From a virus, in IMG/VR virus record IMGVR_UViG_3300012920_000023, positions 49,464-113,463 of that record: 64,000 nucleotides of DNA. One strand, 5' to 3'. A program made the position numbers and the translations under genes. The stretch's first letter is position 1; every line of letters begins with the position of its first letter. Positions 35,164 to 59,346 of the stretch are shown piece after piece. The notes under the pieces were generated by a model that had not been told where the DNA came from, did not search any database, and worked only from the letters and a program-made list of their open reading frames with translations.

Positions 35164-35238
35164 GTTGAAGCATCAACAGTGGCCACCTATGGTGCTCGTA
35201 AACGCCTGTAAGTAAATGAAAATAAGTGTTATTTGTAT

Positions 35239-35320
35239 TTGACATTCAAGGCCACTTGATATAGTATACTTACAACGGTTGATTAAGGCCGGATTAATAC
35301 GACTCTAAAGGAGAGTGAAT
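35239..35320 (+). promoter_or_regulatory. Promoter and SD-hairpin leader of the 35321 gene
   Basis: TTGACA at 35239-35244, 17-bp spacer, TAGTAT at 35262-35267. The SD hairpin pairs ACTCT (35302-35306) with AGAGT (35312-35316) around the loop AAAGG. A degenerate CCACC-TAT-GGTG element lies at about 35183-35194. Confidence 0.72.
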
Positions 35321-35479
35321 ATGCTTAGGTTTAATGATGGCGTGACTATTGATACGAGTGGTGAGTACCGACCGCTTAAACTTAAAGACGGTTGGTACGT
35401 TGTTGGTCAAGGCTCATGTATGCCCGTTGAGTCTCGACAGGAAGCCCTTGAGTTGATTGCGAGGTTGACCAAAAAGTAA
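35321..35479 (+). CDS. Small hypothetical protein (52 aa)
   Basis: 52 residues, MLRFNDGVTI...ARLTKK, short enough to be missed by a size cut-off. It has a complete promoter and SD-hairpin leader, which is the main evidence that it is real. It looks like a small beta-beta-beta-alpha fold (LKLKDGWYVVGQGSCMPV, then QEALELIARLTKK). Confidence 0.65.
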   Translation: MLRFNDGVTIDTSGEYRPLKLKDGWYVVGQGSCMPVESRQEALELIARLTKK

Positions 35480-35528
35480 ACCGCTCCGGGCCAACCTTGA
35501 TTACTCGGGGTTGTTGCCCAACCGGCCT

Positions 35529-35558
35529 AGAGCACCTTATAGGCAATTATGGTGCTCT
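35529..35558 (+). repeat. GCACC/GGTGC stem-loop element
   Basis: AGAGCACC pairs with GGTGCTCT, an 8-bp perfect stem with a 14-nt AT-rich loop, upstream of the promoter at 35648. A tandem AACTTAGGAGC repeat and a partial GCACCTTATAGG follow at 35561-35592. Confidence 0.7.
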
Positions 35559-35647
35559 GCAACTTAGGAGCAACTTAGGAGCACCTTATAGGTAAACCAT
35601 AACGCTTCTAAGTTGTTAAAATAAATCAAAAAAAGATCATTTTTAAC

Positions 35648-35715
35648 TTGACTATAAGGCAGGGCCGAGTTAGTATATTACATCATTAACGATAAACGCT
35701 TAAGGAGAGCGAAAA
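35648..35715 (+). promoter_or_regulatory. Promoter and SD-hairpin leader of the 35716 gene
   Basis: TTGACT at 35648-35653, 17-bp spacer, TAGTAT at 35671-35676. The leader from about 35678 is identical over some 37 nt to the one at 36264. Hairpin: CGCTT (35697-35701), loop AAGGA, GAGCG (35707-35711). Confidence 0.78.
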
Positions 35716-36057
35716 ATGGCAAATATATGTAGTTATGCATTTAAGTGGGAAGATGGACAAGGTCGGCTGTTTAATGACCCCGAGTCTTACGATCAAGAGA
35801 TCGCAGGTGATACAACGATCGGATGCCGAAAGTGGCATCCACCGATCAGTTTATTAAGGGCGATGAAAGCATCGGGCAGGCTTGATTGGGAGGAGCATGG
35901 CTTACTAGGAGTAGGCTATACAATACTCAAAGACGGCGTTATTACTCAACAGGTGGCGGTTGATACACCCAAGAACATTGAAGAGTGTAGGGAGGTAATG
36001 AATACCTATCCAACCCTTGATGTTCAAAACCTTGTTGATCAGTATGAGGACGAGTAA
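35716..36057 (+). CDS. Small early-type hypothetical protein
   Basis: 113 residues, MANICSYAFKWEDGQG..., ending with an acidic helix (LVDQYEDE). No family recognised. It has its own promoter cassette and is flanked by GCACC stem-loops, so it looks like one interchangeable module of the small-gene zone. Confidence 0.65.
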   Translation: MANICSYAFKWEDGQGRLFNDPESYDQEIAGDTTIGCRKWHPPISLLRAMKASGRLDWEEHGLLGVGYTILKDGVITQQVAVDTPKNIEECREVMNTYPTLDVQNLVDQYEDE

Positions 36058-36124
36058 GCAGGCTACTGATCAAGGGGGGGAGTGCTGGGTGCTTAAGGGA
36101 TGGCGGTCATTGGTTGCGGTATGG

Positions 36125-36156
36125 GGAGCACCTTATATATGTGTTATTGGTGCTCC
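36125..36156 (+). repeat. GCACC/GGTGC stem-loop element
   Basis: GGAGCACC pairs with GGTGCTCC (8 bp perfect, 16-nt AT loop). A second inverted repeat, CCGGCT...AGCCGG, follows at about 36161-36191, before the T-rich tract and promoter at 36233. Confidence 0.7.
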
Positions 36157-36232
36157 TTAACCGGCTTACATATATAGAACACCATAGCCGGTAAAAGTGT
36201 GACATTTTTTTTAAAGTTTTTTTATTTTTATA

Positions 36233-36300
36233 TTGACTATCACCTTAAACAGAGTTAATATAGTTACATCATTAACGATAAACGCTTAAGGAGAGCGAAA
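36233..36300 (+). promoter_or_regulatory. Promoter and SD-hairpin leader of the 36301 gene
   Basis: TTGACT at 36233-36238, 17-bp spacer, TAATAT at 36256-36261, preceded by a long T-rich tract. Hairpin: CGCTT (36283-36287), loop AAGGA, GAGCG (36293-36297). The leader is a near-perfect copy of that at 35678-35715. Confidence 0.8.
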
Positions 36301-36597
36301 ATGATCGGACAAACAATCATTCAACAATTAGGCGGAGCCGGTAGGCTTCAAATGTTCATCGGACTAAGACAACTTTTGACCGAGGAGAGCGGAGTGACGC
36401 TCGTATTTCCTAAGCCCAAACACGCCGGTGCGGTCAATAGAGTTCGTATTACCCTTAACCCCAAAGACCTTTATGATATGGAGTTCATTAGATACTCTAA
36501 AAGAGGCGTAAAGGTTGTTAAAGAGTCCAATGACGTTTATGCCGAGGACTTGAGAGATAGATTTGAAGAGGGAACCGGCCTTTATATCCGGTTCTAA
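36301..36597 (+). CDS. Small early-type hypothetical protein
   Basis: 98 residues, MIGQTIIQQLGGAGRLQMFIG..., with beta-rich middle (TLVFPKPKHAGAVNRVRITLNPKDLYDM) and a C-terminal RFEEGTGLYIRF. The opening helix and KxxxAVNRVRITL pattern resemble small phage proteins of unknown role. Own promoter cassette. Confidence 0.65.
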   Translation: MIGQTIIQQLGGAGRLQMFIGLRQLLTEESGVTLVFPKPKHAGAVNRVRITLNPKDLYDMEFIRYSKRGVKVVKESNDVYAEDLRDRFEEGTGLYIRF

Positions 36598-36678
36598 GTT
36601 GAGCCGGAGCGAGGGGTATAGGTTGAGCCGGTAGAGAGAGGGGTTAGGTTGACTTGGTCTTGCTAACCGGCTCATGAC

Positions 36679-36705
36679 AGCACCTTTATTGACCATAATG
36701 GTGCT
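36679..36705 (+). repeat. GCACC/GGTGC stem-loop element
   Basis: AGCACC (36679-36684) pairs with GGTGCT (36700-36705); AT-rich loop. It precedes the promoter at 36748. Confidence 0.68.
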
Positions 36706-36747
36706 CCGTAAGGGCTTAAAACAAATAAACTTTTTTATTATTTTTAC

Positions 36748-36814
36748 TTGACTATTGGGTGTGGATATTGTACTCTATATACATGTTAAAGATAAACGCA
36801 AAGGAGGCGTTAAC
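36748..36814 (+). promoter_or_regulatory. Promoter and SD-hairpin leader of the 36815 gene
   Basis: TTGACT at 36748-36753, 17-bp spacer, TACTCT at 36771-36776. Hairpin: AACGC (36795-36799), loop AAAGGAG, GCGTT (36807-36811). Confidence 0.72.
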
Positions 36815-37033
36815 ATGAAAGAGCAAAAACCCTTTAAAGTACTCGTCAAAGATATGGATTCTCATCATGGCGTCGAGTTCAAAATCAAAGAGAAAGGCGT
36901 GCCAAGCGTGGACGCCAAAATCTACCGAGCAATTGAGCAAATCAAACTGCAACGTAAGGAAGCCAATATGTTTGAAGTCCGTATTACTGCATGTAACGGA
37001 GGCCATGAAGATTACCAACTAGTCTCGCCCTAA
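36815..37033 (+). CDS. Small early-type hypothetical protein
   Basis: 72 residues from MKEQKPFKVLVKD. An in-frame ATG at 36755 lies inside the promoter spacer and is rejected as the start. Basic N-terminal half, then FEVRITACNGGHEDYQL. No family recognised. It is followed by a strong terminator hairpin. Confidence 0.65.
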   Translation: MKEQKPFKVLVKDMDSHHGVEFKIKEKGVPSVDAKIYRAIEQIKLQRKEANMFEVRITACNGGHEDYQLVSP

Positions 37034-37099
37034 AAACAGGGGCTAGGTCGGGCAGGGTAAGACCTTAGCCCTCGACCTCAACCAAGACACCCGGAAAGC

Positions 37100-37126
37100 C
37101 CCCTCGTCAATCGAGGGGCGTTTTAT
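37100..37126 (+). terminator. Rho-independent terminator
   Basis: CCCCTCG (37100-37106), loop TCAAT, CGAGGGG (37112-37118), then CGTTTTAT. This is the clearest intrinsic terminator in the window. A weaker inverted repeat, GGGCTA...TAGCCC, lies just upstream at about 37040-37071. Confidence 0.85.
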
Positions 37127-37138
37127 CGAAATAAAAAT

Positions 37139-37163
37139 GCACCATTATGATCAATAAAGGTGC
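37139..37163 (+). repeat. GCACC/GGTGC stem-loop element
   Basis: GCACC (37139-37143) and GGTGC (37159-37163), AT-rich loop, upstream of the promoter at 37207. Confidence 0.62.
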
Positions 37164-37206
37164 TCTTAAGTACCTGTAATCAAATGAAAATAATTGTTTC
37201 TTTTAC

Positions 37207-37276
37207 TTGACTAACAGTGTCCCTTAGTGTATAACTGTATACATCATTAACCGCTAATCAGTCAAAGGGATTGAAA
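37207..37276 (+). promoter_or_regulatory. Promoter and leader of the 37277 gene
   Basis: TTGACT at 37207-37212, 17-bp spacer, TATAAC at 37230-37235. A weak SD hairpin pairs AATC (37256-37259) with GATT (37269-37272) around AAAGG. Confidence 0.7.
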
Positions 37277-37738
37277 ATGATTGAACAACTAAACGACTTA
37301 TTTAATAAGATTCAAGGCCGGCTCGTCGAAGCCTTTGACCTAGTAGCCGACGAGGCTCTAGGGTTAACTTTACTCATGATGGTTAACCGAAAAAAGGCTT
37401 TAAGCCGGAACGGGTTGACCGCAGAGTGGCGTAAGGATGACGCACGCCGAATGGCACAACATTTCTATTGGCTCGCTAAGACTTACGAGCGTATAGGTGA
37501 GGATGGGCGAGCGATCTGCTTCAAACGAGCGTCAAGCGTCATTTATAAGGCGATCAGAAAAAATGAGGGCTTCACCGGTAAGGACTTTTTAACTCATGAG
37601 CATGTCGGAAAAAAGGTGAGACTTGAAGCGTACCAAGTATGGCTTAAGGATGGGTACACAGAGAGAGTACAAGGATTAATCGACGGTGGTATGATCGACC
37701 CCGATTATCCGGCTCCAATGACAACTTGGGAGGGATAA
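37277..37738 (+). CDS. Hypothetical helical protein
   Basis: 153 residues from MIEQLNDLFNKIQGR, mostly helical and basic (RKDDARRMAQHFYWLAKTYERIG; GRAICFKRASSVIYKAI), with a tetratricopeptide-like feel. No family recognised. The ATG is six bases after AAAGGGA. The downstream sequence repeats GGGCTAGGTCGGGCAGGG, also found at about 37040. Confidence 0.62.
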   Translation: MIEQLNDLFNKIQGRLVEAFDLVADEALGLTLLMMVNRKKALSRNGLTAEWRKDDARRMAQHFYWLAKTYERIGEDGRAICFKRASSVIYKAIRKNEGFTGKDFLTHEHVGKKVRLEAYQVWLKDGYTERVQGLIDGGMIDPDYPAPMTTWEG

Positions 37739-37810
37739 GGGCTAGGTCGGGCAGGGATAGGATGAATGACTTTGACTAAATGACTTTGATATTTTGGCCA
37801 TTGAGGGTTA

Positions 37811-37838
37811 TGGTGCTTAAACCTTTTTAGTTGCACCA
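37811..37838 (-). repeat. Inverted-order stem-loop element
   Basis: TGGTGC (37811-37816) pairs with GCACCA (37833-37838), with arm order opposite to the other elements; it may be a copy in reverse orientation. No TTGACT promoter follows. Confidence 0.5.
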
Positions 37839-37850
37839 AGGATGGTTAGA

Positions 37851-38222
37851 ATGAAAGACATTCTCAAGAAGATTATTTTGCTGATTATCGCTGTTGTCGT
37901 TATTTATTCAGTAGCGTTTCAAGAGCGTCGGGTTTATCCGGTAGATGAATGTTACCGAGTGATTTGGGGCGACCTTAACAGAATGAGAGAGTTAGGGCTT
38001 GAAGACTTATCTGCGATGGATGTGTATGAATACTGCCGTGAGGTCATTATCAATGCCGACCCTATAGTTCACCCTCAAGGTGACGCAAACACTCCTAGAC
38101 GCTTCATTATGGGTGAGCCGGTGATAGAGGTTGTGGGCGGTGAAGAGAGCCACAACCTAGACATCAATCAAGACTCTGAACATGAGTTACTTGATACGCC
38201 TCCGATACTAGAGTCTCCATGA
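37851..38222 (+). CDS. Single-pass membrane protein
   Basis: 123 residues from MKDILKKIILLIIAVVVIYSVAF: a basic start and one strong transmembrane helix (about 6-24), then a soluble acidic domain. An ATG three codons upstream is possible, but its SD is too close. Two Cys in the soluble domain (DECYRVI, YEYCREV). No family recognised. The 3' end overlaps the convergent gene. Confidence 0.62.
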   Translation: MKDILKKIILLIIAVVVIYSVAFQERRVYPVDECYRVIWGDLNRMRELGLEDLSAMDVYEYCREVIINADPIVHPQGDANTPRRFIMGEPVIEVVGGEESHNLDINQDSEHELLDTPPILESP

Positions 38223-38583
38223 GTTCTTGATAATCGACTGTGTCGTATATCACGCCGTCTTTGATCGTGAACACATGCTCCGGCATGACTACTATCCACA
38301 CACCCTCTTGGAGTCTCCACGCTCTTCGCTTTAACCTCAAACGACGGCGAAAGTCTGCACGTTTTAGTTTATAACCGGGTACAGGCTGTCTGTTCCAACT
38401 TGCCCCATGAAGCCAAGCGAGATCAGTACCCTCGCCGGGTTTTCGACCCTGCCGGGCTAGAAACTCAAAGGCTTCCTCATACCCCATACCAAAGGCTATC
38501 TCGCACGCTCTAACACCGCAGTCGTTTTCATCCCGGGAGTGTGGGAGTTCAGAGTACCCTAAGTCTTTAAGAATTACTCTCAT
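38164..38583 (-). CDS. Papain-fold cysteine peptidase-like protein
   Basis: 139 residues starting MRVILKDLGYSEL. Cys in NDCGVRACEIAFG starts a helix, and WIVVMPEHVFTIKDGVIYDT supplies a candidate His and Asp, in the Cys-His-Asp order of papain-like/C39-like folds often found in phages. The ATG at 38583 is preferred because ACGAAG lies upstream and overlap with the previous gene is small. The substrate, if any, is unknown. It is encoded with the probable regulator upstream. Confidence 0.6.
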   Translation of the reverse strand: MRVILKDLGYSELPHSRDENDCGVRACEIAFGMGYEEAFEFLARQGRKPGEGTDLAWLHGASWNRQPVPGYKLKRADFRRRLRLKRRAWRLQEGVWIVVMPEHVFTIKDGVIYDTVDYQELMETLVSEAYQVTHVQSLD

Positions 38584-39322
38584 CTTCGTCCGGGAATAGG
38601 GTATCAAGTGTCTCACTGCCATATACAACTTCATTGCCGGTCATGTCAAAAGCGACAACTTTGAATCCAATAACCTGTTCAATGCGGTCAAGGTATTCAT
38701 TAAGTGTATTAAGCCCGGAGTTTTGGCTTAAGTATTCTGTGCAGATGAGGTCAAGGGCATGACCCTCTTTTTCTGTTCCTGCTAAAGTCATGGCTTTCGC
38801 CAACGCAGTTGAAACATTAGTCATCTGATCTTCAAACAGGGCAAAGTTCTTACGCTTAGGTTTCTCCAAAATTGATGGAGCGTCAGTTTCCATCGACTCC
38901 GACTTGGCTTCTTTTACGGCGGTGGTCAGTTCTCTTAGCGATGAACTTTCTGCCACATCTCGCCATTCCTCTGCATTGGACTCGTCAACGACTCCAACCA
39001 ATTCTCGGGCTTTAGTCCAACCCAACTCTTTAACCCATGCTTGAACACTTTCGCTCTGATCACCAAACCACCCGGCAATAGCGACGAGATATTGGGCTTT
39101 GCGTCGTTGCATTGAGAGTTCGTTATCAACATAGTCCGGGAATGAAGTGTAGCCCCAATCTTCATAAGCGTTTTCATTCCAAACATTAAACAGAGCGGTA
39201 GCAAGACGCCAATAGGCACCCTCTACATTATTCTTTGCTTCGATGACCTCAAGACGTAAGTCATCATGTACGCTCGGCGGTAAGACCTCAATGGTCGCCA
39301 AACTTGTTTCATTTGATCGCAT
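38567..39322 (-). CDS. Probable DNA-binding regulator
   Basis: 251 residues from MRSNETSLATIEV; the ATG at 39322 is six bases after GGAG. The middle (YWRLATALFNVWNENAYEDWGYTSFPDYVDNELSMQRRKAQYLV...LGWTKARELVGVV) has the helical layout of phage regulators and ParB-like helix-turn-helix proteins that detect growth state, but I cannot name the family. The upstream region holds two palindromes (39348-39364 and 39419-39430), consistent with autoregulation. Acidic C-terminus. Confidence 0.6.
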   Translation of the reverse strand: MRSNETSLATIEVLPPSVHDDLRLEVIEAKNNVEGAYWRLATALFNVWNENAYEDWGYTSFPDYVDNELSMQRRKAQYLVAIAGWFGDQSESVQAWVKELGWTKARELVGVVDESNAEEWRDVAESSSLRELTTAVKEAKSESMETDAPSILEKPKRKNFALFEDQMTNVSTALAKAMTLAGTEKEGHALDLICTEYLSQNSGLNTLNEYLDRIEQVIGFKVVAFDMTGNEVVYGSETLDTLFPDEDESNS

Positions 39323-39347
39323 TAGCATCTCCGATATTCAACTTAAA

Positions 39348-39364
39348 ATGTTCACTGTGAACAT
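39348..39364. promoter_or_regulatory. Operator-like palindrome ATGTTCACTGTGAACAT
   Basis: A 17-bp perfect palindrome with an odd centre (arms ATGTTCAC/GTGAACAT), about 25 bp upstream of the start of the minus-strand regulator gene and downstream of a reverse TTGACA at about 39389-39394. Confidence 0.6.
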
Positions 39365-39418
39365 ATAACGGATGATGATTGTCACACGCTAGGTTCAATG
39401 TCAAGTCGAAAAGATTGT

Positions 39419-39430
39419 GCACACGAGTGC
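39419..39430. promoter_or_regulatory. GCACACGAGTGC palindromic element (intergenic)
   Basis: One of seven GCACWCGWGTGC matches, in the divergent region between the regulator gene and the gene at 39545; flanked to give TGCACACGAGTGCA. Confidence 0.55.
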
Positions 39431-39477
39431 ATGATGTGGCCGGCAGATTATCTTCTCAGAAATACTTTCTTTTTTAC

Positions 39478-39544
39478 TTGACTATACAGGTGGGTGCTGA
39501 TATGTTAAGTCCATCATTCATTACAGACGTTTAAGGAGAACGAC
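39478..39544 (+). promoter_or_regulatory. Promoter and SD-hairpin leader of the 39545 gene
   Basis: TTGACT at 39478-39483, 17-bp spacer, TATGTT at 39501-39506. Hairpin: CGTTT (39528-39532), loop AAGGA, GAACG (39538-39542). Confidence 0.75.
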
Positions 39545-44770: not shown

Positions 44771-45394
44771 TTACCAATCAAGATCAGTATCTTCGACTTC
44801 ACGATACTCATCTTCCCGACTAGGCTTTATGGTAGGTTGTACCACCTGCTGTGCACCGAAAAACCGATCTTGGCATGACCATAGAAAATTGATAGTAGGC
44901 AGACCGCTTAACCGGCCTCGACTGCTCGTAACCATGCCCGGCCATTCCTCCACAAAGTTTTTGATCACGATCTCGACCATCTCTCGGGTGTAGTTTTGGC
45001 ATAGTTTTTTAGCGAGAGTGTTCTCCTTTACTCCCCATCGCTTAGTTATGACCTCTTGGCCATACACCACATTAATCTGTGCTTTGAAATACTTTTCAAG
45101 CCCGGCAGAGATCGACTTCGTTTTCGCAGGCTTTTTTTTAGCAGGCTTGGGTTCTACCGGTGGCTCCATTGCTAACGGTGGGTAGGTTGCCGGTCTGCTT
45201 TTTCTGTTGTACTGTTCAGAGAGGCTCTGAAATACGGTTCTCCGGCGTTGCGGTTGCTCATAAAACTCAGAGAGATTTTGATCTAGTTCTTGATCTGCAA
45301 ATGCATCGTAAATGTCTTTTACTTTTTTAGGCTCAAACGAAACGCTCTCTCTGCGTTTTAAGTTTTTAAGCCTTTTCAACTTATTGATACTCAA
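44771..45394 (-). CDS. Hypothetical basic protein, replication-region
   Basis: 207 residues. A long basic, low-complexity N-terminal half (KLKRLKNLKRRES; KPKPAKKKPAKTK-type) precedes a compact C-terminal domain (LAKKLCQNYTREMVEIVIKNFVEEWP...LPTINFLWSCQDRFFG). The C-terminal helix-rich domain resembles accessory replication or DNA-binding domains, but I recognise no family. Confidence 0.6.
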   Translation of the reverse strand: MSINKLKRLKNLKRRESVSFEPKKVKDIYDAFADQELDQNLSEFYEQPQRRRTVFQSLSEQYNRKSRPATYPPLAMEPPVEPKPAKKKPAKTKSISAGLEKYFKAQINVVYGQEVITKRWGVKENTLAKKLCQNYTREMVEIVIKNFVEEWPGMVTSSRGRLSGLPTINFLWSCQDRFFGAQQVVQPTIKPSREDEYREVEDTDLDW

Positions 45395-46017: not shown

Positions 46018-46296
46018 CTATCTGTTGCGTTCAGTGATGTAATCCATCTCAACTTTGAGTCCCTCTCGACCACCGTGTGCTGTTAAGATACTTCTTATCG
46101 CAGAGACTACATGCCCACTCTTACCGATGACTTGACCCACATCCTTTTTGTCTGTGTGGAGTTCTACTATTAATCTGAACTGCGAGGGGACTATATTCAC
46201 CTCAACAGTCTCCGGACTATCGACTATCCCTTTTATGATAGTAGTGACTAGATTCTTAAGGTTGTCTATATGTTCTCGGGTAATTTGTTTGCTCAT
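46018..46296 (-). CDS. KH-domain RNA-binding protein, KhpA-like
   Basis: 92 residues: almost only a KH domain. IKGIVDSPETVEVNIV, FRLIVELHTDKKDVGQVIGKSGHVVSAIRSILTAHG shows the GxxG RNA-binding loop (IGKSGH) and matches the bacterial KhpA (YlqC) layout. KhpA-type proteins bind many RNAs and modulate translation or sRNA action. A stand-alone copy in a phage is uncommon and could act on the hairpin leaders seen in this genome; that link is a guess. Confidence 0.82.
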   Translation of the reverse strand: MSKQITREHIDNLKNLVTTIIKGIVDSPETVEVNIVPSQFRLIVELHTDKKDVGQVIGKSGHVVSAIRSILTAHGGREGLKVEMDYITERNR

Positions 46297-46299: not shown

Positions 46300-47019
46300 C
46301 TACCACCTTATCATTGGAAAATTGTCGCTCATGTACTCGTCAAACTCTTGACTATTAAGTGCTAAAGTCTCGACTTGATCTATACTGTGTTGAGGTTCAT
46401 AATACAGGTCTCTTACGATATCTGCACCATATTTTAAAAAGGCTCCCGGAGTAATCGAGTAATAGTCGTTAAAAGATTGTTCCTTAGAGACATACTTCCA
46501 TCCACAGTCATTGGATATGGATTCAATAGGAATAAGCCCGGTTACATAAGCCTTTTGAGAGAACGGTCTAGTCACGCAGAGGATGATGTGATTGCAACCA
46601 AAAGACTTAAGTTTGACATTTTTTTGAGCATTTACTTTGATCGTGTCTCTCTGATGAGGACGCATGATCGAGTATGATTTAGAGTCCACCCACTGCTGTT
46701 CACCCTCGTTTAGAAGCAGGAAGTCGGCTTCTCCATCCGGGCGACTCCTAATGTCTGTGTGCAGGAGATTAGACTGTGCATGGGTTACTGCAACCCCGGT
46801 TGCGTTATTCTTCATAAGGTGCAACATGATCAGAACTTCACTGAACACACCAACAAGATCACACCTCATGTCTCTTATTCGTCCCCTTGATTTTCTTGGG
46901 TCAACCTTACCCCGGTTATAACGCTGACGGTTTAGCATTATCCTTAATGATATGGCCCAAGCGATGATCGGCACATCGCAGAACCCGGCAATACTCTCAA
47001 GTATATCAGTGTCACCCAT
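46300..47019 (-). CDS. PD-(D/E)XK-type nuclease-like protein
   Basis: 239 residues. FSEVLIMLHLM (Glu), PDGEADFLLLN (Asp) and QQWVDSKSYSI (Asp-x-Lys) suggest a restriction-endonuclease-like fold, followed by a HIILCVTRPFSQKAYVTGLIPI strand pair. The catalytic assignment is based on motif spacing only. Three bases upstream of the KH gene, so same operon. Confidence 0.55.
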   Translation of the reverse strand: MGDTDILESIAGFCDVPIIAWAISLRIMLNRQRYNRGKVDPRKSRGRIRDMRCDLVGVFSEVLIMLHLMKNNATGVAVTHAQSNLLHTDIRSRPDGEADFLLLNEGEQQWVDSKSYSIMRPHQRDTIKVNAQKNVKLKSFGCNHIILCVTRPFSQKAYVTGLIPIESISNDCGWKYVSKEQSFNDYYSITPGAFLKYGADIVRDLYYEPQHSIDQVETLALNSQEFDEYMSDNFPMIRW

Positions 47020-47123
47020 AGATCAAACTCCGTCGCTTTTAAACGCAGAGCATTATAACGGGTTTCGATTATAATTTGTCTGACTCTATATGAATGTCAA
47101 GTGGAAAACTCTAAACTCTCAAT

Positions 47124-47501: not shown

Positions 47502-48131
47502 ATGAGAGAGTTAAACAGTGCCGACCTTGAAGCAATGAGACTGCCTAGGCGGTTTTGGTCGGCTTTTTTTGATAAGATCAATGGCCCGAATGGAGATGGT
47601 TCTGAGGTAAGAACGATGATCGCCGGGTACGTTTCAAATATTCATGCTATGCGAAATGCAGGAGCAGGTCTACTAATTTGGGGGCCGAACGGAACAGGTA
47701 AAACCTCTATCGGTTCGGTAATCCTAAAGCACGCAAGAAGAATGGGCTTCACCTGTTTGTTTATTAATACGGCGAGCCTAAAAGATGTCATTGTGAGTCG
47801 TGAGGTCTATGACCAAGAGAGCGGTCTGACTCTTTGGAATAGAGCCAAGATTGTCGACTTTCTTTTGCTAGATGATCTTGGGAAAGGTTCTCAAGATTCT
47901 ACCGGGTTTGGTGAGCGAATGATCGATGAGTTAATCCGGGCAAGATATGCGGACAATAGATGTACTATAATCACGACTAATATCCCAAAATCGAACCTAA
48001 CAGACTTCATCAAACCGTCAACGCTTCATATCCTCAAGGGATCAAGTGCTCAAATCAAAGTTGATTTTTATGATTTCAGAGTTGAAGAGGGTAAGAGGAT
48101 AAGAGACTTGATAAATGGGGGTAAGCAATGA
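47502..48131 (+). CDS. DnaC-like helicase loader (AAA+ ATPase)
   Basis: 209 residues. Walker A GPNGTGKT at 61-68, Walker B VDFLLLDDLGKG near 120, sensor-1 CTIITTNIP near 158. The layout is that of DnaC/DnaI loaders that place the replicative helicase on DNA. Its TGA overlaps the start of the DnaB-like gene (ATGA), so the two are coupled. Confidence 0.9.
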   Translation: MRELNSADLEAMRLPRRFWSAFFDKINGPNGDGSEVRTMIAGYVSNIHAMRNAGAGLLIWGPNGTGKTSIGSVILKHARRMGFTCLFINTASLKDVIVSREVYDQESGLTLWNRAKIVDFLLLDDLGKGSQDSTGFGERMIDELIRARYADNRCTIITTNIPKSNLTDFIKPSTLHILKGSSAQIKVDFYDFRVEEGKRIRDLINGGKQ

Positions 48132-49423
48132 TTGATTCCGGTTTTATTTTTACGCTCTTAAACAGTGAAGATAACACTCAACAGGCTATCCAAACAGGCT
48201 TCGGCAACGAGGACTTCCAAGAGGGCTACCATAGAGCGTTTTCTTTGATCAAAGATCACTTTGAAAGCAGTAAAGGACGTTTACCCACTCTTGATGCAGT
48301 ATCAAGTGCTACAGGTCTTGATATAGAGGATTCGGGTTATGACTTTCAGTTCCTGTTCTCTGAGATGCAGAAGCGAAAACTTTTTCGTAAGGTTCAGAGT
48401 TTGATCGGTAAGGCCGGAGATCAACTTAGGGCGAATGATCCTAGCAAGGCTCTTGAGTTGATAAAAGACCTCGCTAAGAATGAGTTTGGCTCGACCGGTT
48501 CTGTTCAACCTAAGACTGCTCATGATGTAAAGCAACAGGTACTTGATAACCTTAACCGTGTTAGGAACGGCTTTGCCGGCGTCGCTCTGCCTTGGGAAAG
48601 CATTACGAACTTAACGATGGGTATGTGGCCGGAGACCGCCACTTATATAGTTGCAAGACCCGGTGTAGGTAAGACGCAGGTTTCGGTACTAACTGCCCAT
48701 AAGGCTATCAAAGAGGGTAAGAAAGTCCTGTTCATTTCACCGGAGATGTCAAAGGCAGAACTCGCAGAGAGATTCTTCGTTCTTGAGTCCGATGTGAGTG
48801 CTACTAACATGATCCACGGAACGCTATCATCTTTTGAAGAAGAGAAGTTGATGAAATCAATGAATGACCCATCATGCTTGGAGGGTATATTCATGATTGA
48901 TAACGACGATGATTTGACTGCCGGTGGTATGGACTCTGCGATAAGGCTTATAGAGCCGGACTTAGTCATTGTTGACTCTATTTATATGCTCCACTTCAAG
49001 GGCAATAAGAGCGAGAGAACCGAGCGTGCCGTGGACTACATAAGGCAGGCTAGTAAAGTTCATAAAGTGCCTTTTTTGGCGGTGCATCAACTTAACCGGA
49101 TGGCTACTAAAGACGCTAAACATGGCGGTGGTTTTGATACCTCATCGATAGCGTTGAGTGATCAGTTACTTTGGGATGCACATGCAGTATTTCTGCTTGA
49201 GCAGGACGCCGATATGAAAGCAGATAAGAGGTTAAGGATTCATGTAGGTAAGTTAAGGCGTGGAGCCCATCCCGGCAAACCTTTTAATGTAAACTTTGAT
49301 CTCGACAGAATGGACTTTAGTGAGATCGAAGACCTTGATGAATGTTTTGTAGATACCGAAGCGAGTTCAGAGCCTTGGGCAAACTACCATGTAAACCCGT
49401 TCAACGAGGGGGATGTTGAGTAA
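48128..49423 (+). CDS. DnaB-like replicative helicase
   Basis: 431 residues. The RecA-type core has Walker A ARPGVGKT near 176-183, a LFISPEMSKAELAERF H1a-like segment, Walker B LVIVDSIYML and a FLAVHQLNR H3 motif near 315. An N-terminal helical domain of about 120 residues precedes it. It unwinds the fork as a hexamer. Coupled to loader and primase by overlaps. Confidence 0.92.
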   Translation: MIDSGFIFTLLNSEDNTQQAIQTGFGNEDFQEGYHRAFSLIKDHFESSKGRLPTLDAVSSATGLDIEDSGYDFQFLFSEMQKRKLFRKVQSLIGKAGDQLRANDPSKALELIKDLAKNEFGSTGSVQPKTAHDVKQQVLDNLNRVRNGFAGVALPWESITNLTMGMWPETATYIVARPGVGKTQVSVLTAHKAIKEGKKVLFISPEMSKAELAERFFVLESDVSATNMIHGTLSSFEEEKLMKSMNDPSCLEGIFMIDNDDDLTAGGMDSAIRLIEPDLVIVDSIYMLHFKGNKSERTERAVDYIRQASKVHKVPFLAVHQLNRMATKDAKHGGGFDTSSIALSDQLLWDAHAVFLLEQDADMKADKRLRIHVGKLRRGAHPGKPFNVNFDLDRMDFSEIEDLDECFVDTEASSEPWANYHVNPFNEGDVE

Positions 49424-50568
49424 TGCTTACCTCAAGGGAGGTTGCTCTGATCATGTCAGAGATAACCAAGGTTCATTCGGTGGAGTTTGATAAGGTTGTA
49501 TGTCACTGTCCTATGGCCCAATGGGAACACGCCGGTGGTTATGACAATTCGCCCTCATTTGCGGTCATGAGGGGGCGAACAGGTTGGTGGGTAAACTGCC
49601 TAGCCTGTAAGTATAGAAATACGCTTGAGGGTATGATTTGGGACATCATGGGACGCACTAAAAAGCCTTTGACCAAAATCATGGCCCTGCTCTACCACAA
49701 GGATGAATCTACAATAGAGACCCCGGTAAAAGAGATTGCCTACAATCCTATGGGTGCATACTCATCTAAAAATAAACCTGTCTTTAAACGAAGAGAGTAC
49801 GCCGAGTCGGTGGGTGTGCAGACTGATTTGTTCGGCAGAGAGATTCAACCGGTGATTGAAGAGGCGAGGCCATCAGCAATCGAGTTAGATCGATGGGAGT
49901 CGGTGAAACCGCCGATTGATTACTGTGATAGACGTGGCATTACCTATGAAGCCTACAAAGAGTGGCGTTTAGGTCATGACTTTCGGCGTCGGAGATTGGT
50001 CTTTCCTGTGTTCAGTAGAAGTGGCGAATATGTAGGGTACACCGGGCGACTATATGAAGACGGCGACTACTGCTTTTCCTGCGGTACTTATCTAATCGAA
50101 GATAAGATTCATGGCGTGACCGGGGAGTTGATACAGAAAAAAGCGGTGATATGCCCCGGTTGCGGTAGATCACACGCTAAATATAAACACTTCAAAGGCA
50201 AGTGGCGACGGCATGTTGTGTACGGGCTTCATCGTGATGTTAAAGGCCCAATAGTTGTGACTGAGGGAACAACGGATGCCATAAGGCTTTGGATGCTAGG
50301 TATATCAAGGCCGGTCTGTATTTTAGGGGCTAACCTCTCACCAAATCAGATCAACGAGTTGAAAGAAGCCATAGATCCGGACTTGGAGTATCCGATAATT
50401 TTCATGGGTGACGGTGATGATGCAGGCCGGGAAATGGCGGAAAGCGGTGTACAGGCCATGCAAAGAGTTGGAGTTCAATCTTTTTTACTTGACTGTCCGG
50501 CCAAAGATCCCGACAGTATGACCTTAGAGCAGGCGATTGATATATTTCCTGCATATTCATTTAGATAG
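49423..50568 (+). CDS. DnaG-like primase
   Basis: 381 residues, starting at the last base of the helicase stop (TAATG). The N-terminal zinc-binding domain is CHC...WVNCLAC (about 27-60). The TOPRIM core has IVVTEGTTDAI (Glu), CILGANLS and the FMGDGDDAGREMA (DxD) motif near 330. A second Cys4 zinc ribbon (CFSCG...CPGCG near 222-250) is inserted before TOPRIM, which is unusual. It primes lagging-strand synthesis with the upstream helicase. Confidence 0.9.
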   Translation: MLTSREVALIMSEITKVHSVEFDKVVCHCPMAQWEHAGGYDNSPSFAVMRGRTGWWVNCLACKYRNTLEGMIWDIMGRTKKPLTKIMALLYHKDESTIETPVKEIAYNPMGAYSSKNKPVFKRREYAESVGVQTDLFGREIQPVIEEARPSAIELDRWESVKPPIDYCDRRGITYEAYKEWRLGHDFRRRRLVFPVFSRSGEYVGYTGRLYEDGDYCFSCGTYLIEDKIHGVTGELIQKKAVICPGCGRSHAKYKHFKGKWRRHVVYGLHRDVKGPIVVTEGTTDAIRLWMLGISRPVCILGANLSPNQINELKEAIDPDLEYPIIFMGDGDDAGREMAESGVQAMQRVGVQSFLLDCPAKDPDSMTLEQAIDIFPAYSFR

Positions 50569-50577
50569 GAGGGCAAC

Positions 50578-51021
50578 ATGCCTTTAAGTTTGAAAAAGCA
50601 GAGATTGGTATGGGTATATGCAAACCATGCCAAGAGAGAGTATTTAAGCGGTAATTTTTTGATCGCCGGGCATCCCCGGACTGCTCGTTATCCCGGTATC
50701 AAAGAGATGATACAGATGGAGAGTGCAGTCGGGGCAGTTCTTTTAAGCCTGCTCACTCCGGTAAGCCGTAAGATTGATGGCTCCCGGGTCAAGCATGAGT
50801 TTAGAGGTCGGTGGGCAGGAGATACGGTCATCTCACTCAATAATAAAGAAGACTATGGAAAGTTTAGGGAGATCACCGAGAGTTATCACTCCGTAAACTT
50901 AGAGGGTGTGGATTATCTAAGAGAGCAAGACTCTTGGGATAGACCTCTGTATGACACTTTGGTTGAGGACTTTGAGATGCCGATGCCAAGACCCGGCAAC
51001 CTTTTAGAGCAGGCTAAATAA
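50578..51021 (+). CDS. Hypothetical protein after primase
   Basis: 147 residues, basic N-terminus (LSLKKQRLVWVYANHAKREY), mixed alpha/beta, acidic end. No family recognised. It is ten bases after primase with SD AGGAGG and in the same operon. Confidence 0.62.
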   Translation: MPLSLKKQRLVWVYANHAKREYLSGNFLIAGHPRTARYPGIKEMIQMESAVGAVLLSLLTPVSRKIDGSRVKHEFRGRWAGDTVISLNNKEDYGKFREITESYHSVNLEGVDYLREQDSWDRPLYDTLVEDFEMPMPRPGNLLEQAK

Positions 51022-51044
51022 TTTCGATATTATTTTATTTTGAC

Positions 51045-51149
51045 TTGACAAGTCATTTATATATGACTATAACACTCAATAAGCGTTAATAATGATTAAC
51101 GTGATTTCAGTAATCAACCCAAAACATGAACAAAGATCAAGGAGTTCAA
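51045..51149 (+). promoter_or_regulatory. Promoter, operator palindrome and leader of the SSB gene
   Basis: TTGACA (51045-51050), 17-bp spacer, TATAAC (51068-51073). The -35 lies inside a 15-bp palindrome, TGACTTGACAAGTCA (51041-51055). The leader contains CGTTAAT-AATG-ATTAACG (51084-51101) and an SD hairpin TGAAC/GTTCA (51127-51131/51144-51148). Confidence 0.75.
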
Positions 51150-51899
51150 ATGAGTAATTGGGGATCACAAGGATGGGATACCGTAGATGATTACGGCCCA
51201 CAGAAGACAGCAGATACCGGCCCTCGCAAGTTCTATATGCCGGCTAACCTCACAAAACGCATCCTATTTTTAGGCTCTGCCCCGTTCACCTTTTGGGAGC
51301 ACTCGCTCTATGAGATCACTAGATCCGGTAAGGATAAAGAGATCTGCCTTAAGCGTAACCGTATCGCCCAAGAGTGCCCACTCTGTGATAAAGAGATGTG
51401 GCCATCAATGATCGGCTATTTTACGGTGGTTGATATGGGTGATGTGAAGCGTCAACCGGATGGCTCTGTTCGCCTAGAGGGTTGGACAAGTGATAAGGGC
51501 GTTACCTATCAGTTTGGTCGTAAACTCTTAGGGGCAAAGCGTGGCGGTAAAGATAAGCCGGGCATCCTTAAAAAGATTGCTCGACTTGCCGAACGACATG
51601 GCGACTTGAAAGGGTGCGTCTTTGATGTATACCGATCCGGCAATAAAGTTGAAACCTGCGGTGATGAGTGGGACTTCGTTGAGAAGATTCCTGCCGATCA
51701 AATCGGGGCTTATTTGATGAGCAACGGAGCAACAGAAGAACAGATTGAAGACCTGTCGGAAGTAAACTACGCAGAGCATTTCGTACCCAAGACAGTTGAT
51801 GAGTTAAAAGCCCTTGTTAATGGGGGCACAAGCAATGACTTCGGCGGTGGCTTCGGTCAATCACCCTCAAGCGGTGATTCGCCTTGGAAGAAGTGGTGA
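51150..51899 (+). CDS. Single-stranded DNA-binding protein (phage SSB family)
   Basis: 249 residues from MSNWGSQGW; AAGGAG is seven bases before this ATG, so an earlier ATG at 51126 is rejected. KFYMPANLTKRILFLGSAPFTFWEHSL, CPLCDKEMWPSMIGYFTVVD and a flexible Gly/Ser-rich end finishing in DSPWKKW match the phage ssDNA-binding family found next to replication genes. The CLKRNR...CPLC cysteines may bind zinc. It covers ssDNA at the fork. Confidence 0.85.
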   Translation: MSNWGSQGWDTVDDYGPQKTADTGPRKFYMPANLTKRILFLGSAPFTFWEHSLYEITRSGKDKEICLKRNRIAQECPLCDKEMWPSMIGYFTVVDMGDVKRQPDGSVRLEGWTSDKGVTYQFGRKLLGAKRGGKDKPGILKKIARLAERHGDLKGCVFDVYRSGNKVETCGDEWDFVEKIPADQIGAYLMSNGATEEQIEDLSEVNYAEHFVPKTVDELKALVNGGTSNDFGGGFGQSPSSGDSPWKKW

Positions 51900-51967
51900 T
51901 CTAACGACTTGACCGGCAGTATCGCTTAAAGCAGATGCCTTGAGTATCTGCAACTAATCCTAACCAC

Positions 51968-51992
51968 GGCCCTCCGGGGTCTTTCTCGTTTC
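51968..51992 (+). terminator. Possible terminator after the SSB gene
   Basis: GGCCC (51968-51972), tetraloop TCCG, GGGTC (51977-51981), then TTTCTCGTTTCT. A second hairpin, GCAGAT...ATCTGC, lies at about 51932-51952. The T-run is interrupted, so efficiency is uncertain. Confidence 0.5.
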
Positions 51993-52026
51993 TATAGGTT
52001 ATTAAAAATGAACATTAGTAAGCGTC

Positions 52027-53493
52027 ATGAAAGAGCATAAGTACATTGCAAGTGGATGGGTGTGGCTCCGTAAGTCTGATTATGCTCCGTCTTATCTCAA
52101 CCATATAAGGAGGGTGCTAACCTGTTACCCTAAGTCGACTTCTGAACACAGCAAAGCCGAGCCGGCTCCAATAAGATTATATGAGGATAGGCGTGAAGTT
52201 CTAGGCGTGCCTAGAGGTTGGTTTACCGATCAACTAGATTATTCAAGAGAAGCGGTAATAGAGCGAGTTTCAGACGGCTCTCCCATAGATACATCCGTTA
52301 AGTCCTTAATGCGGTTTAAAGGGCCATTTAAAGAGCAGGGAAACGCATTAGAGGTCATGCGTGATTACATGAACCTAAAAGGGTTTGGTGGCTTCTTGCT
52401 TCAAGCCGGTTGTGGTTTTGGTAAAACTAACACTGCACTTGAACTCGCTTATCGCAACGGGCGACGCACACTTATCCTTGTGCATAAGGAGTTCTTTCTC
52501 CGGCAGTGGAGAGAACGTATAGAGACATTCTTTACGGGGGCAAAGATTGGTTATATCCGGCAGGACTCGTGTGATTTTGAGGGCTGTGATTTTGTGATCG
52601 GTATGCTTCAATCGATAGCAAGAGATGATGGGGCAGGGAGTAAGTATAACCCGGCGATGTATGAAGCGTTTGGTATGGTGATCTCTGACGAATGCCATCG
52701 TATAGGTGCTCAAAGTTGGTCATCGATTGTGCCGAGGTTTACTGCACGTTGGCGTGTGGGGTTGACAGCCACTCCCCGGCGTAAAGACGACGCAGAGATG
52801 GTATTCTTCAAACACATTGGCCCGATTATATACCGAGCAAAGACATCTGCTCTAGTCCCGGAGGTGCGTGTCTTAGAGACACAGGCGACTCTTGATGGGA
52901 AGCGTGTCTATGGACGTTTCAAGCCGGCAGATTCACTAGGCCATACTGAGGTTCTGAGTCAGTTGGTTAAAGATGACAAGCGGAACCGCCTTATCGCCGA
53001 GGTCGTATCTCGTGCGGTGGCGAATGGTCGTAAAGTTATGATCATCAGTGAACGTTTGAAGCACCTAGATTCCATAAAAGAACAGTTTTTTGAAGAACTG
53101 CTCCGCTTGGATTATGAACTAGACCCGGACGTTCAAGTTGATTACATGGTAGGCTCTAGGAGTGAAAACGAACTCAAAGAAGCAGAGTCGGCAAACGTAA
53201 TCCTTGCAACAAAGCAGATGGTAGAAGAGGGGCTAGATGTACCGGCGATTGATGTGTTGGTATTGGCCACGCCCATGAGTGATGTGGAGCAGACTGTCGG
53301 ACGTGTTCGCCGACACTGCAAACCGTCAAAAGATAAATGCCCAAAAATGTGTCCTTGGAGAGCACACGAGTGCACCGGGAAACCCCACCCGATAGTGGTA
53401 GACGTTCACGACCCGGGCATACCTCAGTCGATGAGAAAAGTTAAACGTCGAAATGATTTCTATACAAAGATAAAAGGAGGCCATAATGGCTAG
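52027..53493 (+). CDS. SF2 helicase (UvsW/RecG-type DEAD-box family)
   Basis: 488 residues. Motif I AGCGFGKT near 137-144, motif Ia LVHKEFFLRQW, motif II SDECHRIG near 227, motif III GLTATPRRKD near 255, and motif VI-type VEQTVGRVRRH near 424. An unusual Cys cluster (CKPSKDKCPKMCPWRAHEC) follows near 435-455 and could bind zinc or iron-sulfur. It is likely a branch-migration helicase in recombination-dependent replication. The SD before the ATG is weak. Confidence 0.87.
   Translation: MKEHKYIASGWVWLRKSDYAPSYLNHIRRVLTCYPKSTSEHSKAEPAPIRLYEDRREVLGVPRGWFTDQLDYSREAVIERVSDGSPIDTSVKSLMRFKGPFKEQGNALEVMRDYMNLKGFGGFLLQAGCGFGKTNTALELAYRNGRRTLILVHKEFFLRQWRERIETFFTGAKIGYIRQDSCDFEGCDFVIGMLQSIARDDGAGSKYNPAMYEAFGMVISDECHRIGAQSWSSIVPRFTARWRVGLTATPRRKDDAEMVFFKHIGPIIYRAKTSALVPEVRVLETQATLDGKRVYGRFKPADSLGHTEVLSQLVKDDKRNRLIAEVVSRAVANGRKVMIISERLKHLDSIKEQFFEELLRLDYELDPDVQVDYMVGSRSENELKEAESANVILATKQMVEEGLDVPAIDVLVLATPMSDVEQTVGRVRRHCKPSKDKCPKMCPWRAHECTGKPHPIVVDVHDPGIPQSMRKVKRRNDFYTKIKGGHNG
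53362..53373. promoter_or_regulatory. GCACACGAGTGC element (intragenic)
   Basis: Exact GCACWCGWGTGC match inside the SF2 helicase gene, at the Cys cluster codons. Confidence 0.4.
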
Positions 53494-53920
53494 TAAAAAA
53501 AGTGGGACTTACTTTACGGAGTGGTATGCTAAGAACCGAGAAACTTTTCTTGAGAAACGTCGAGCACGTTATCAAGATGATGAGAATTACCGGGAGAGAC
53601 AACAGCGTTACACTAAGGAATCTCGTCAGAGAAAGCGTGACGGTGAAGAGTTGGTTTACAAAAACACTCTTAAAGACCTCGCAGACTCAATGAGTGTTTG
53701 CACAGGGACTGTTCGATATTGGTTCAAGCAGGGTTACATGCCTGTTCCACCCAAAGGCCAATCCGGACGTTATGAGATCACCGATGAGAGTTTATCTATG
53801 ATTTCAAGTGCGTTTAAAGAGTTAGGAGGTCGTTTAAAGCCCTCTAATGTAAAAGAGTTTAAAGACATGACCGGTAAACTCATTGATAGCGGTTGGTGTT
53901 ATGAAGAGGTGGATGCATGA
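53486..53920 (+). CDS. Putative DNA-binding protein with basic and MerR-like segments
   Basis: 144 residues. Residues 15-52 are a basic Arg/Tyr-rich region (KRRARYQDDENYRERQQRY) like those in some phage DNA-binding proteins. Residues about 60-95 resemble a MerR-type winged helix (TLKDLADSMSVCTGTVRYWFKQGYMPVP). Overlaps the helicase end by 8 bp; SD AAGGAGG. It may be a transcription regulator. Confidence 0.6.
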   Translation: MASKKSGTYFTEWYAKNRETFLEKRRARYQDDENYRERQQRYTKESRQRKRDGEELVYKNTLKDLADSMSVCTGTVRYWFKQGYMPVPPKGQSGRYEITDESLSMISSAFKELGGRLKPSNVKEFKDMTGKLIDSGWCYEEVDA

Positions 53921-54099
53921 GAGATATTGTTAGCCGGCTAGGTCGGTTCAAGTTTACGGTTCACAACCTTGTGGCACACCCTCTCATGGAGGTACTTCAC
54001 CTCATCGGATTTTCTGAGTTAGGAGACAAAATCCATGATGCCACACTGCCGTGGGATCGCAGTGAAAGTCATATTGAAAATAATGAAAATAAAACTTGA
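53917..54099 (+). CDS. Small protein of the HNxxxHPLM family
   Basis: 60 residues, MRDIVSRLGRFKFTVHNLVAHPLMEVLHLIGF...IHDATLP. The VHNLVAHPLM...HDATLP core recurs in the product of 62907 (IHDFVSHPLM...VHDLTLP), so the genome holds two members. The function is unknown; the amphipathic helix with His/Asp could be a membrane or metal site. Starts at an ATGA overlap. Confidence 0.65.
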   Translation: MRDIVSRLGRFKFTVHNLVAHPLMEVLHLIGFSELGDKIHDATLPWDRSESHIENNENKT

Positions 54100-54163
54100 C
54101 TATCATGCAAGTCAAAGTTAAAACTTAATCACGGTTCAACATGGATAAAAAAAGGAGTTGAAA
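54096..54163 (+). promoter_or_regulatory. Promoter and SD-hairpin leader of the 54164 gene
   Basis: TTGACT (54096-54101), 17-bp spacer, TAAAAC (54119-54124). The -35 is the left half of TTGACT-N7-AGTCAA. SD hairpin: TTCAAC (54135-54140) with GTTGAA (54157-54162), the AAAGGA SD at the loop's 3' side. Confidence 0.65.
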
Positions 54164-54718
54164 ATGACCGTGTTAAGAAATGATGAAGAACGATTTGACC
54201 CTCAGATCCGGTATTATACCGAAGAGCGTGAGACCACAACGACGATTGTCAGTAAAGGCGATCCAACCCTAACGCAAGTCGGCAATCCGGTTGAGTTTAC
54301 ATGGACAGAGGGCTTGCCTAGAGTCGCTTATTCTGCCGGTAAAACCCTCTCCCTCGGCGATTATCAGTTTGCTAGAGTGGGCGTTACTATTGAGGTTGAG
54401 TATGGGCTTAATGACAACCCCGATCATGCCTATGATACAGTGAAGTATCTCGCTAAAGAGATTGTTGCTCAAGAGTCTGCTTCTATAAAGCGTGAAGAGC
54501 GTGAAAACGGTGAGTTCCTGCCCGGTGACTATGGCAAATATAGGATCACACTAGACTATGGCTTAACTTTGAAAACCGGACGCTTTGATTCGTCAAAGGT
54601 TGATGTTATTTTGACTCGGTACTCGACGCATAAAGACCTGCAAGGCGTGTTGGCAAATATGCGTGGAATCCTCTCCAAGAGAGTTCAAGAAGAGGCCGTA
54701 CAAATCAAATCATCATAA
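54164..54718 (+). CDS. Hypothetical protein, replication region
   Basis: 184 residues from MTVLRNDEERFDPQ; a TTG two codons earlier is less likely given the AAAGGAG spacing. Beta-rich middle (DYQFARVGVTIEVEYGL) and helical end (LQGVLANMRGILSKRVQEEA). This resembles small phage DNA-binding or accessory proteins near RecA, but no family is certain. Confidence 0.6.
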   Translation: MTVLRNDEERFDPQIRYYTEERETTTTIVSKGDPTLTQVGNPVEFTWTEGLPRVAYSAGKTLSLGDYQFARVGVTIEVEYGLNDNPDHAYDTVKYLAKEIVAQESASIKREERENGEFLPGDYGKYRITLDYGLTLKTGRFDSSKVDVILTRYSTHKDLQGVLANMRGILSKRVQEEAVQIKSS

Positions 54719-54728
54719 CGGAGTGAAC

Positions 54729-54983
54729 ATGGATATTGATGTCCTAGTCAAGATGTTTACCGGGGCATCATGGATCATGTATACCTTGCTGATCTTAATA
54801 GGTCTGCCCGGTATGTATAACTCAGTGTGGCAGTTCATAATGGACGATGACATTACAATCGCCATACTTGCCTTTGTCCTGCCGGTGTTTTTCTGTGCCG
54901 GGCTAGGTTTGGCGGTTTATTTCTTCCCGTTATTCTCCGGAGCAGTCATGTCATATTTTATTTACAATACACTTAACAAGTAA
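54729..54983 (+). CDS. Small multi-pass membrane protein
   Basis: 84 residues from MDIDVLVKMFTG. Three hydrophobic segments (ASWIMYTLLILIGLPGM; TIAILAFVLPVFFCAGLGLAVYF; FPLFSGAVMSYFIY) span most of the protein. CGGAGTG lies upstream. No family recognised; a holin or membrane-sensor role is possible. Confidence 0.62.
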   Translation: MDIDVLVKMFTGASWIMYTLLILIGLPGMYNSVWQFIMDDDITIAILAFVLPVFFCAGLGLAVYFFPLFSGAVMSYFIYNTLNK

Positions 54984-54994
54984 GGGCATTAATT

Positions 54995-56188
54995 TTGAGT
55001 AGGAGAGATAAGTTAAAGGCGTTTGCGTCTCAAGTAGAAAAGAAGTATGGAGAGCGTTCATTAGATATCGGTTTACGCACCATTGATATAAAGAGGTTGC
55101 CCACCGGCAGTCTTGGTTTAGACTTGGCTTTAGGTGGTGGAGTTCCTTATGGTCGTGTGACTATGATGTATGGTGCGAAATCTAGCGGAAAGACCACCAC
55201 GGCTTATAGGTTAGCAGGTCAATGTCAAGACTTGTGTGCTAACTGCCTGCGACCTGCACAGTTTGATGATCTTAGCGTAAGGTATGACGAGGATGGTGAA
55301 GTCATTGAACCTCAAGGCCACTGTGATTGCTACAACGAGGGTTTATTTACTCCGGTTCAATACCCGGATGAAAATAAACTCGATTTTAAAGCACGTTTAA
55401 AAGCGTATGAGCAGAACTCTTATGAGAGGTTTTGGATTGCGATCATAGACGTGGAAGCGTCTTACGATCACAAGTGGGCGACGAAAGTAGGCTTAAAGCC
55501 TTATGGAGTTGTCTTTAGCCGTCCGGGGTCAGCAGAAGAGGCAATCGATGTTATTGATCATCTCGTTAGAACCGGGAGCGTGGACATGGTTGTTCTAGAC
55601 AGTATCGCTTCTTTGACTCCCTCTAAGGAGATTGAAGAGAGCGTGGAAAAGTGGCAACAGGGCTTGCAGGCACGCCTAGTCAATAAGTTCTGTCGAAAGA
55701 TAAACTCTACCATAAATGATGTGGGCCGGGAGTATGGTCGTAAACCCACTATGGTGTTCATCAATCAGATACGAGAGAAGATCGGCGTTATGTTTGGCTC
55801 AAATGAAACCGTTCCCGGTGGTAGAGGGCAGGGATTCGTAACATCATGCGAGATCAAGATGTGGGCGAACGATTATCAAAAAGAAAAGATGCCGGGTCTT
55901 GATTTTGAAACGACCACAGGCGTGCGGATTAATTTTAAGGTTGAAAAAAACAAGACTGCTCCACCAAAGCGAACGGGTTCATACTTAATGTCTCTTGAAG
56001 ACGGGTCTGTCGATGACAGTAAACTAATTCTCGATTTCGCCGAGGGGTACGGTGTCTTTGGAAAGAACGGAAAAGTTTGGGAAGTTCTTGGAGTAGAGTT
56101 TAAGACTAAAAAGTCGGCGGTAGAGTTCATTATGAAGCCGGAGAATGTTCAGCACATCAAAGAGTTGATGTTAGAGGCTTATGTGTAA
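54995..56188 (+). CDS. recA: RecA-like recombinase with cysteine-rich insertion
   Basis: 397 residues with a TTG start at 54995. Walker A GAKSSGKT at 60-67, the IIDVEASYD strand near 150-158, Walker B VDMVVLDSIASL near 200, and loop regions INQIREK...GGRGQGF are RecA hallmarks. Between Walker A and IIDVEASYD lies an insert of about 65 residues (77-143) with CQDLCANC and CDC, likely a zinc ribbon, absent from E. coli RecA. It drives strand exchange and repair. Upstream SD is weak. Confidence 0.9.
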   Translation: MSRRDKLKAFASQVEKKYGERSLDIGLRTIDIKRLPTGSLGLDLALGGGVPYGRVTMMYGAKSSGKTTTAYRLAGQCQDLCANCLRPAQFDDLSVRYDEDGEVIEPQGHCDCYNEGLFTPVQYPDENKLDFKARLKAYEQNSYERFWIAIIDVEASYDHKWATKVGLKPYGVVFSRPGSAEEAIDVIDHLVRTGSVDMVVLDSIASLTPSKEIEESVEKWQQGLQARLVNKFCRKINSTINDVGREYGRKPTMVFINQIREKIGVMFGSNETVPGGRGQGFVTSCEIKMWANDYQKEKMPGLDFETTTGVRINFKVEKNKTAPPKRTGSYLMSLEDGSVDDSKLILDFAEGYGVFGKNGKVWEVLGVEFKTKKSAVEFIMKPENVQHIKELMLEAYV

Positions 56189-58745: not shown

Positions 58746-58770
58746 GCACCATAGTATAGTCTAATGGTGC
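58746..58770 (+). repeat. GCACC/GGTGC stem-loop element
   Basis: GCACC...GGTGC with ATA...TAA extending the stem; it precedes the T-rich tract and promoter at 58813. Confidence 0.68.
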
Positions 58771-58812
58771 TCCGTAAGTCTCCGGTTTTATTTAAACTTT
58801 TTTTATTTTTAG

Positions 58813-59304: not shown

Positions 59305-59346
59305 CCGTAAAGCCTTAATATATATTAAACTCTCTTTCTTTTTTAC

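Follow-up and report, generated by a model that had tools for sequence, protein, structure and literature searches.

The window, the 64,000-nucleotide stretch of DNA analysed here, is part of a virus record of 113,463 bp that carries genes for a contractile tail and for phage replication, and the window encodes a phage-adapted addition to the known KhpA family. We rate the chances as about even that this protein, P0001, is a phage-dedicated, KhpA-type binder of single-stranded RNA that would depend on its GxxG loop, act either as a homodimer or together with host KhpB, and have no link to the leaders of the same genome in which the SD lies in a hairpin loop (SD-in-loop leaders).

A KhpA-type KH protein encoded by a phage

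The KH gene and its neighbours in the window are as follows.

46018..46296, minus strand: khpA-like gene, encoding a 92-aa protein with a single KH type II domain (PF13083, AlphaFold2 model and Foldseek)
46300..47019, minus strand: upstream operon gene, 239 aa (ORF), with its stop 3 nt ahead of the KH start codon
44330..46006, minus strand: downstream cluster genes of 137, 98, 207 and 142 aa (ORFs)
47502..56188, plus strand: replication/recombination module adjoining the KH gene (Pfam), with its order conserved beside KH in the relatives L031 and L032; AAA loader at 47502, DnaB helicase at 48128, Toprim primase at 49423, ResIII/DEAD helicase at 52027 and RecA at 54995

P0001 (MSKQITREHIDNLKNLVTTIIKGIVDSPETVEVNIVPSQFRLIVELHTDKKDVGQVIGKSGHVVSAIRSILTAHGGREGLKVEMDYITERNR) is read on the minus strand from an ATG at 46296 to a stop at 46018. 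Its sole Pfam domain is PF13083 (KH_KhpA-B; residues 14-83, E=2.7e-15), with a score of 56.5 bits that exceeds the gathering score of 32.1 bits. Among PDB sequences, KhpA matches best (7xqc, E=1e-9), and P0001, with 92 residues and one domain, fits the stand-alone KhpA size class of about 75-90 aa. The AlphaFold model, whose input included an alignment of phage relatives, has a pLDDT of 89.5 and the a-b-b-a-a-b order of KH type II: helix 7-24, strands 32-37 and 41-47, helices 50-57 and 59-78, and strand 81-86. The GxxG motif is intact (G58-K-S-G61, GKSG; DNA about 46114-46125) and lies between alpha-2 and alpha-3. Foldseek matched the model to S3 KH domains and to the T. thermophilus KhpB/EloR-RNA structure 9lri (TM 0.73, rmsd 2.0). 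The first-pass annotation had described a phage-encoded, 92-residue stand-alone KhpA-like KH domain with an intact GxxG loop, and PF13083, 7xqc and the AlphaFold2/Foldseek results bear this description out. P0001 scored 61.1, 60.9 and 45 bits against the NCBIfam KhpA-type equivalogs, under their cut-offs of 106, 85 and 106, and we therefore call it KhpA-type and do not class it as a strict ortholog of KhpA. The KhpA-type KH identity is well above chance and secure; the function we infer.

The KH gene is a genuine phage gene. Its codon usage value of 0.019 falls among those of five close neighbours (-0.013 to 0.027), and the larger phage genes lie at 0.021-0.048. Bacterial contamination of the window was ruled out by the phage operon, the phage codon usage and the phage synteny. 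Translation of KH is probably coupled to that of the 239-aa gene (46300-47019), for which no Pfam, PHROG, phage or IMG/VR relative was found. Read by eye, the 239-aa product carries a motif, PDGEAD...VDSK, that suggests a PD-(D/E)XK nuclease. Elsewhere, the window contains a phage-encoded B12-dependent (class II) ribonucleotide reductase (7050-9188), ThyX (30291-30977) and three tandem 105-nt copies (15558-15872), of which the second and third match the first at 71% and 64% identity.

The nearest IMG/VR phage relatives of P0001 are L031 (56% identity) and L032 (39% identity), which share with it the DVGQVIG signature and the synteny with the replication module. In both, KH sits just upstream of homologues of the window genes at 44771, 47502, 48128, 51126, 52027 and 54995 (36-59% identity); the loader, DnaB and RecA are 41-59% identical to those of the window at the protein level. 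The 207-aa gene (44771-45394) accompanies KH in both contigs by tblastn. The window keeps this gene set, but with KH and 44771 on the opposite strand, and the genes preceding KH in L031 and L032 differ from the 239-aa gene. Bacterial ffh, rpsP, rimM and trmD were not found around KH in either contig.

Spread and neighbourhoods in other phages

With P0001 alone as the query, searches of viral and genome contigs gave no matches, and an alignment was needed to find relatives. Alignment-based scans of IMG/VR returned 18 loci and then 56, and about 48 distinct phage copies are counted there; the DnaB protein of the window, used as a query, found no IMG/VR relative. P0001 matched no PHROG family. 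The GenBank phage collection gave seven matches, and the six examined were all UNVERIFIED scaffolds of bacterial origin, most with ffh/rpsP/khpA/rimM/trmD genes. The UNVERIFIED GenBank "phage" records L002-L007 and L030 are pieces of bacterial chromosome with the order ffh-rpsP-khpA-rimM-trmD-rplS. One true isolate, the phage Tunturi_5 (gp147), was found with phage KH proteins as queries, and a literature search found no paper on phage-encoded KhpA. The view that such proteins are rarely seen in phages thus holds for annotated and GenBank phages and for PHROGs, but not for IMG/VR, with its roughly 48 copies. None of the IMG/VR KH loci was flanked by genes of the bacterial khpA operon, a test limited by reference genes from gut and Bacillota-type scaffolds and by flanks of at most 8 kb.

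A tree of 95 KH domains over 83 columns, which has low resolution, groups P0001 with L031 and L032 (SH-aLRT 89) and contains one phage clade of 16 rows (support 99, starred). About 8 changes of label between phage and bacterium are needed on this tree; starred branches force no fewer than 2 of these, and several separate captures of KH genes by phages are therefore likely. L041 nests within Clostridia and sits at a contig edge; it may be host sequence next to a prophage.

The neighbours of KH bear on what the protein does. The main alternative to an RNA-binding role is that of a replication accessory, in which the KH domain would bind ssDNA, RNA primers or an R-loop and work with the loader, DnaB and RecA. 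KH domains in general are able to bind ssDNA. DnaB lies 2.2-2.8 kb from KH in the three phages of the P0001 clade and 268 bp away in L033, RecA adjoins KH in L063, and a place beside the replication module could just as well reflect a function in replication. However, this proximity is not general: DnaB is within 3 kb of KH in only 4 of the 11 records with a clear DnaB, and other phages have KH 16-157 kb from DnaB, beside ThyX/Hsp20 or GroEL. The 16-row clade has the order ThyX-Hsp20-KH-HU, with a 110-aa gene between ThyX and Hsp20, and another set of phages has GroEL-X-KH. We consider a replication role unlikely. The khpA-like gene lies two genes past GroEL, or directly past Hsp20, in L024, L067, L069, L073, L079 and L082 and in L045, L040, L036, L047 and L058.

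Residues of the binding and dimer faces

Bacterial KhpA is an RNA binder in vivo (PMC12456014). In our alignment, the residue before the loop is Gln in the P0001/L031/L032 clade (Q55) versus Lys in 45 of 45 bacterial rows, and the residue after it is His or Ala (H62 in P0001) versus Arg or Lys in 42 of the 45. The A64 position has become Val or Ile in the clade. P0001 retains Arg68, and both it and L031 keep GxxG; L032 has GRNA and, unlike P0001, has lost the second Gly. The K55 and R62 changes, together with the loop differences, show that the expected nucleic-acid face has been modified in this clade and not merely inherited. With both of these near-invariant basic residues lost, and with GRNA in the loop of L032, binding may be weakened or changed. 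We count the altered loop-flanking residues, as well as the missed equivalog score, against the RNA-binder reading.

The alpha-3 face raises the question of a partner. Ile70 of P0001 aligns with I61 of pneumococcal KhpA, which is required for homodimerisation, and pneumococcal KhpA also uses this alpha-3 face to contact the EloR KH domain (PMC6403258). An R3H domain (PF01424), the mark of KhpB, was found neither in the genome of the window phage nor in 23 other KH-phage records, and controls were positive; with none in 24 of 24 records, any KhpB-like partner would need to come from the host. By analogy, P0001 might serve host takeover, pairing with host KhpB, displacing host KhpA and altering post-transcriptional and cell-elongation control. 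The retained alpha-3 Ile, the KhpA-EloR contact and the lack of a phage R3H/KhpB protein across the 24 records would fit such a role. However, conservation of the alpha-3 surface is partial (the dimer position holds Ile in L031 but Phe in L032), and we regard host takeover as quite unlikely.

Leaders with the SD in a hairpin loop

In the record, the SD lies in a hairpin loop at 31 of 85 SD-start sites, compared to 6.1 expected when flanks were shuffled, and at 23 of the 32 promoter-proximal SDs. The stems of these hairpins vary in sequence between copies yet still pair. This excess and the pairing of differing stems indicate that the leaders are real in the window phage, and the earlier statement that the genome has many structured leaders holds. 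Repeated units occur at 5804-5890, 35190-39540 and 58760-63460 of the window (plus strand) and, on the minus strand, at the left end of the record. Each has an AGCACC...GGTGCT inverted repeat, an AT-rich tract, a TTGACT promoter and, about 54 nt on, a short hairpin that carries the SD (AAGGAG) in its loop. An exact-motif search of IMG/VR for the leaders returned 6 single matches, a number that does not clearly exceed chance, and none when the promoter was included; Rfam had no match in the window.

The first-pass annotation had further proposed, as a speculative link, that the KH protein may partner with these hairpins. Such a dedicated partnership, through which P0001 would control early protein levels, could draw on the reality of the leaders and on the RNA-binder type to which P0001 belongs. 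However, SD-in-loop sites in seven other KH phages numbered 7 vs 4.1 expected, 2 vs 0.7, 5 vs 2.8, 0 vs 0.6, 4 vs 2.0, 1 vs 0.3 and 3 vs 2.2, a comparison that took in mostly partial contigs, in which early regions may be missing, and hosts that vary in SD usage. The seven included the nearest relatives, L031 and L032, and neither of these contigs is enriched in such leaders to the degree of the window phage. The small or absent excess suggests that KH is kept without SD-in-loop leaders, which argues against a dedicated partnership. Moreover, the KH gene lies on the opposite strand in an operon that no SD-in-loop leader heads, and in these hairpins the SD is exposed in the loop without the help of a protein. 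The proposed partnership is thus left unsupported, and we consider it very unlikely.

The leader of the KH operon

The KH operon has a folded leader of its own, preceded by a possible promoter.

47020..47064, minus strand: candidate leader at the 5' end of the operon, with the SD (GGAG) paired in one hairpin and the start codon of the 239-aa gene in a second stem
47071..47100, minus strand: candidate sigma-70-type promoter, TTGACA-18-AATTAT, from a consensus scan (10 of 12 matches; such matches are no commoner than in shuffles)

The leader and first codons (about 47005-47064, minus strand) fold at -18.8 kcal/mol (z -3.3), with 0 of 200 shuffles as stable. This is the second most structured of the 74 start regions in the window, for which the median is -7.7. 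Since KH translation is probably coupled to the 239-aa gene, the folded leader could govern KH as well. As a target for regulation by P0001, it is a better candidate for autoregulation than the SD-in-loop leaders: P0001 would bind the leader, controlling the 239-aa gene and, via coupling across the 3-nt gap that separates the two genes, itself. The pairing of both SD and start codon speaks for this. On the other side, it is a single leader, picked after looking; the promoter is a bare consensus match, and the different upstream genes of L031 and L032 leave no homologous leader in which conservation or covariation could be seen. Autoregulation is for these reasons a lead only, and we judge it highly improbable.

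A model for P0001 and its wider meaning

The kin of P0001 occur in many uncultivated phages without hairpin leaders, which points to a general helper that binds nucleic acids as its probable role. According to the RNA-binder model, an ancestor of the phage group of the window would have captured a khpA gene from bacteria, and the gene would have been retained beside the replication module. P0001 would bind short single-stranded RNA, or possibly ssDNA, across the GxxG loop, and would dimerise via helix alpha-3 or heterodimerise with host KhpB. Its most likely task would be to chaperone or stabilise RNA on behalf of the phage, replacing host KhpA or competing with it on phage and host transcripts.

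A broader proposal is possible but doubtful: tailed phages would have captured KhpA repeatedly and would use it without KhpB as an RNA chaperone, often encoded beside GroEL in one set, Hsp20 in another, or the replisome, amounting to widespread, unrecognised post-transcriptional control, with the binding face reshaped in the clade of the window by the loss of K55 and R62. The interest of phage KhpA-type genes lies mainly in their unexpectedly wide spread, over one isolate and dozens of phages that are uncultivated. Should their products bind RNA, phages would have in them small tools of RNA control that lend themselves to testing, for which gp147 of the culturable phage Tunturi_5 provides a system.

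Comparison with known systems

P0001 resembles bacterial KhpA (YlqC of B. subtilis and pneumococcal KhpA; 31-45% identity) in its single KH-II domain, similar size, GxxG, alpha-3 Ile and Arg68 of alpha-3. It differs by a 12-residue N-terminal extension, by the changes of K55 to Q, R62 to H and A64 to V, by scores under the NCBIfam equivalog cut-offs and by its place in a phage operon instead of rpsP-khpA-rimM-trmD. With the KH-II domain of KhpB/EloR/Jag (9lri), it shares the Pfam family and the fold (TM 0.73, rmsd 2.0); unlike those proteins, P0001 stands alone, with neither Jag_N nor R3H. The protein gp147 of the Tunturiibacter phage Tunturi_5 (XOB77590.1, "hypothetical protein") is likewise a stand-alone KhpA-type KH protein (PF13083, 53.6 bits). 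In contrast to P0001, it comes from an isolated jumbo phage of 309 kb, is distant on the tree and has other neighbours.
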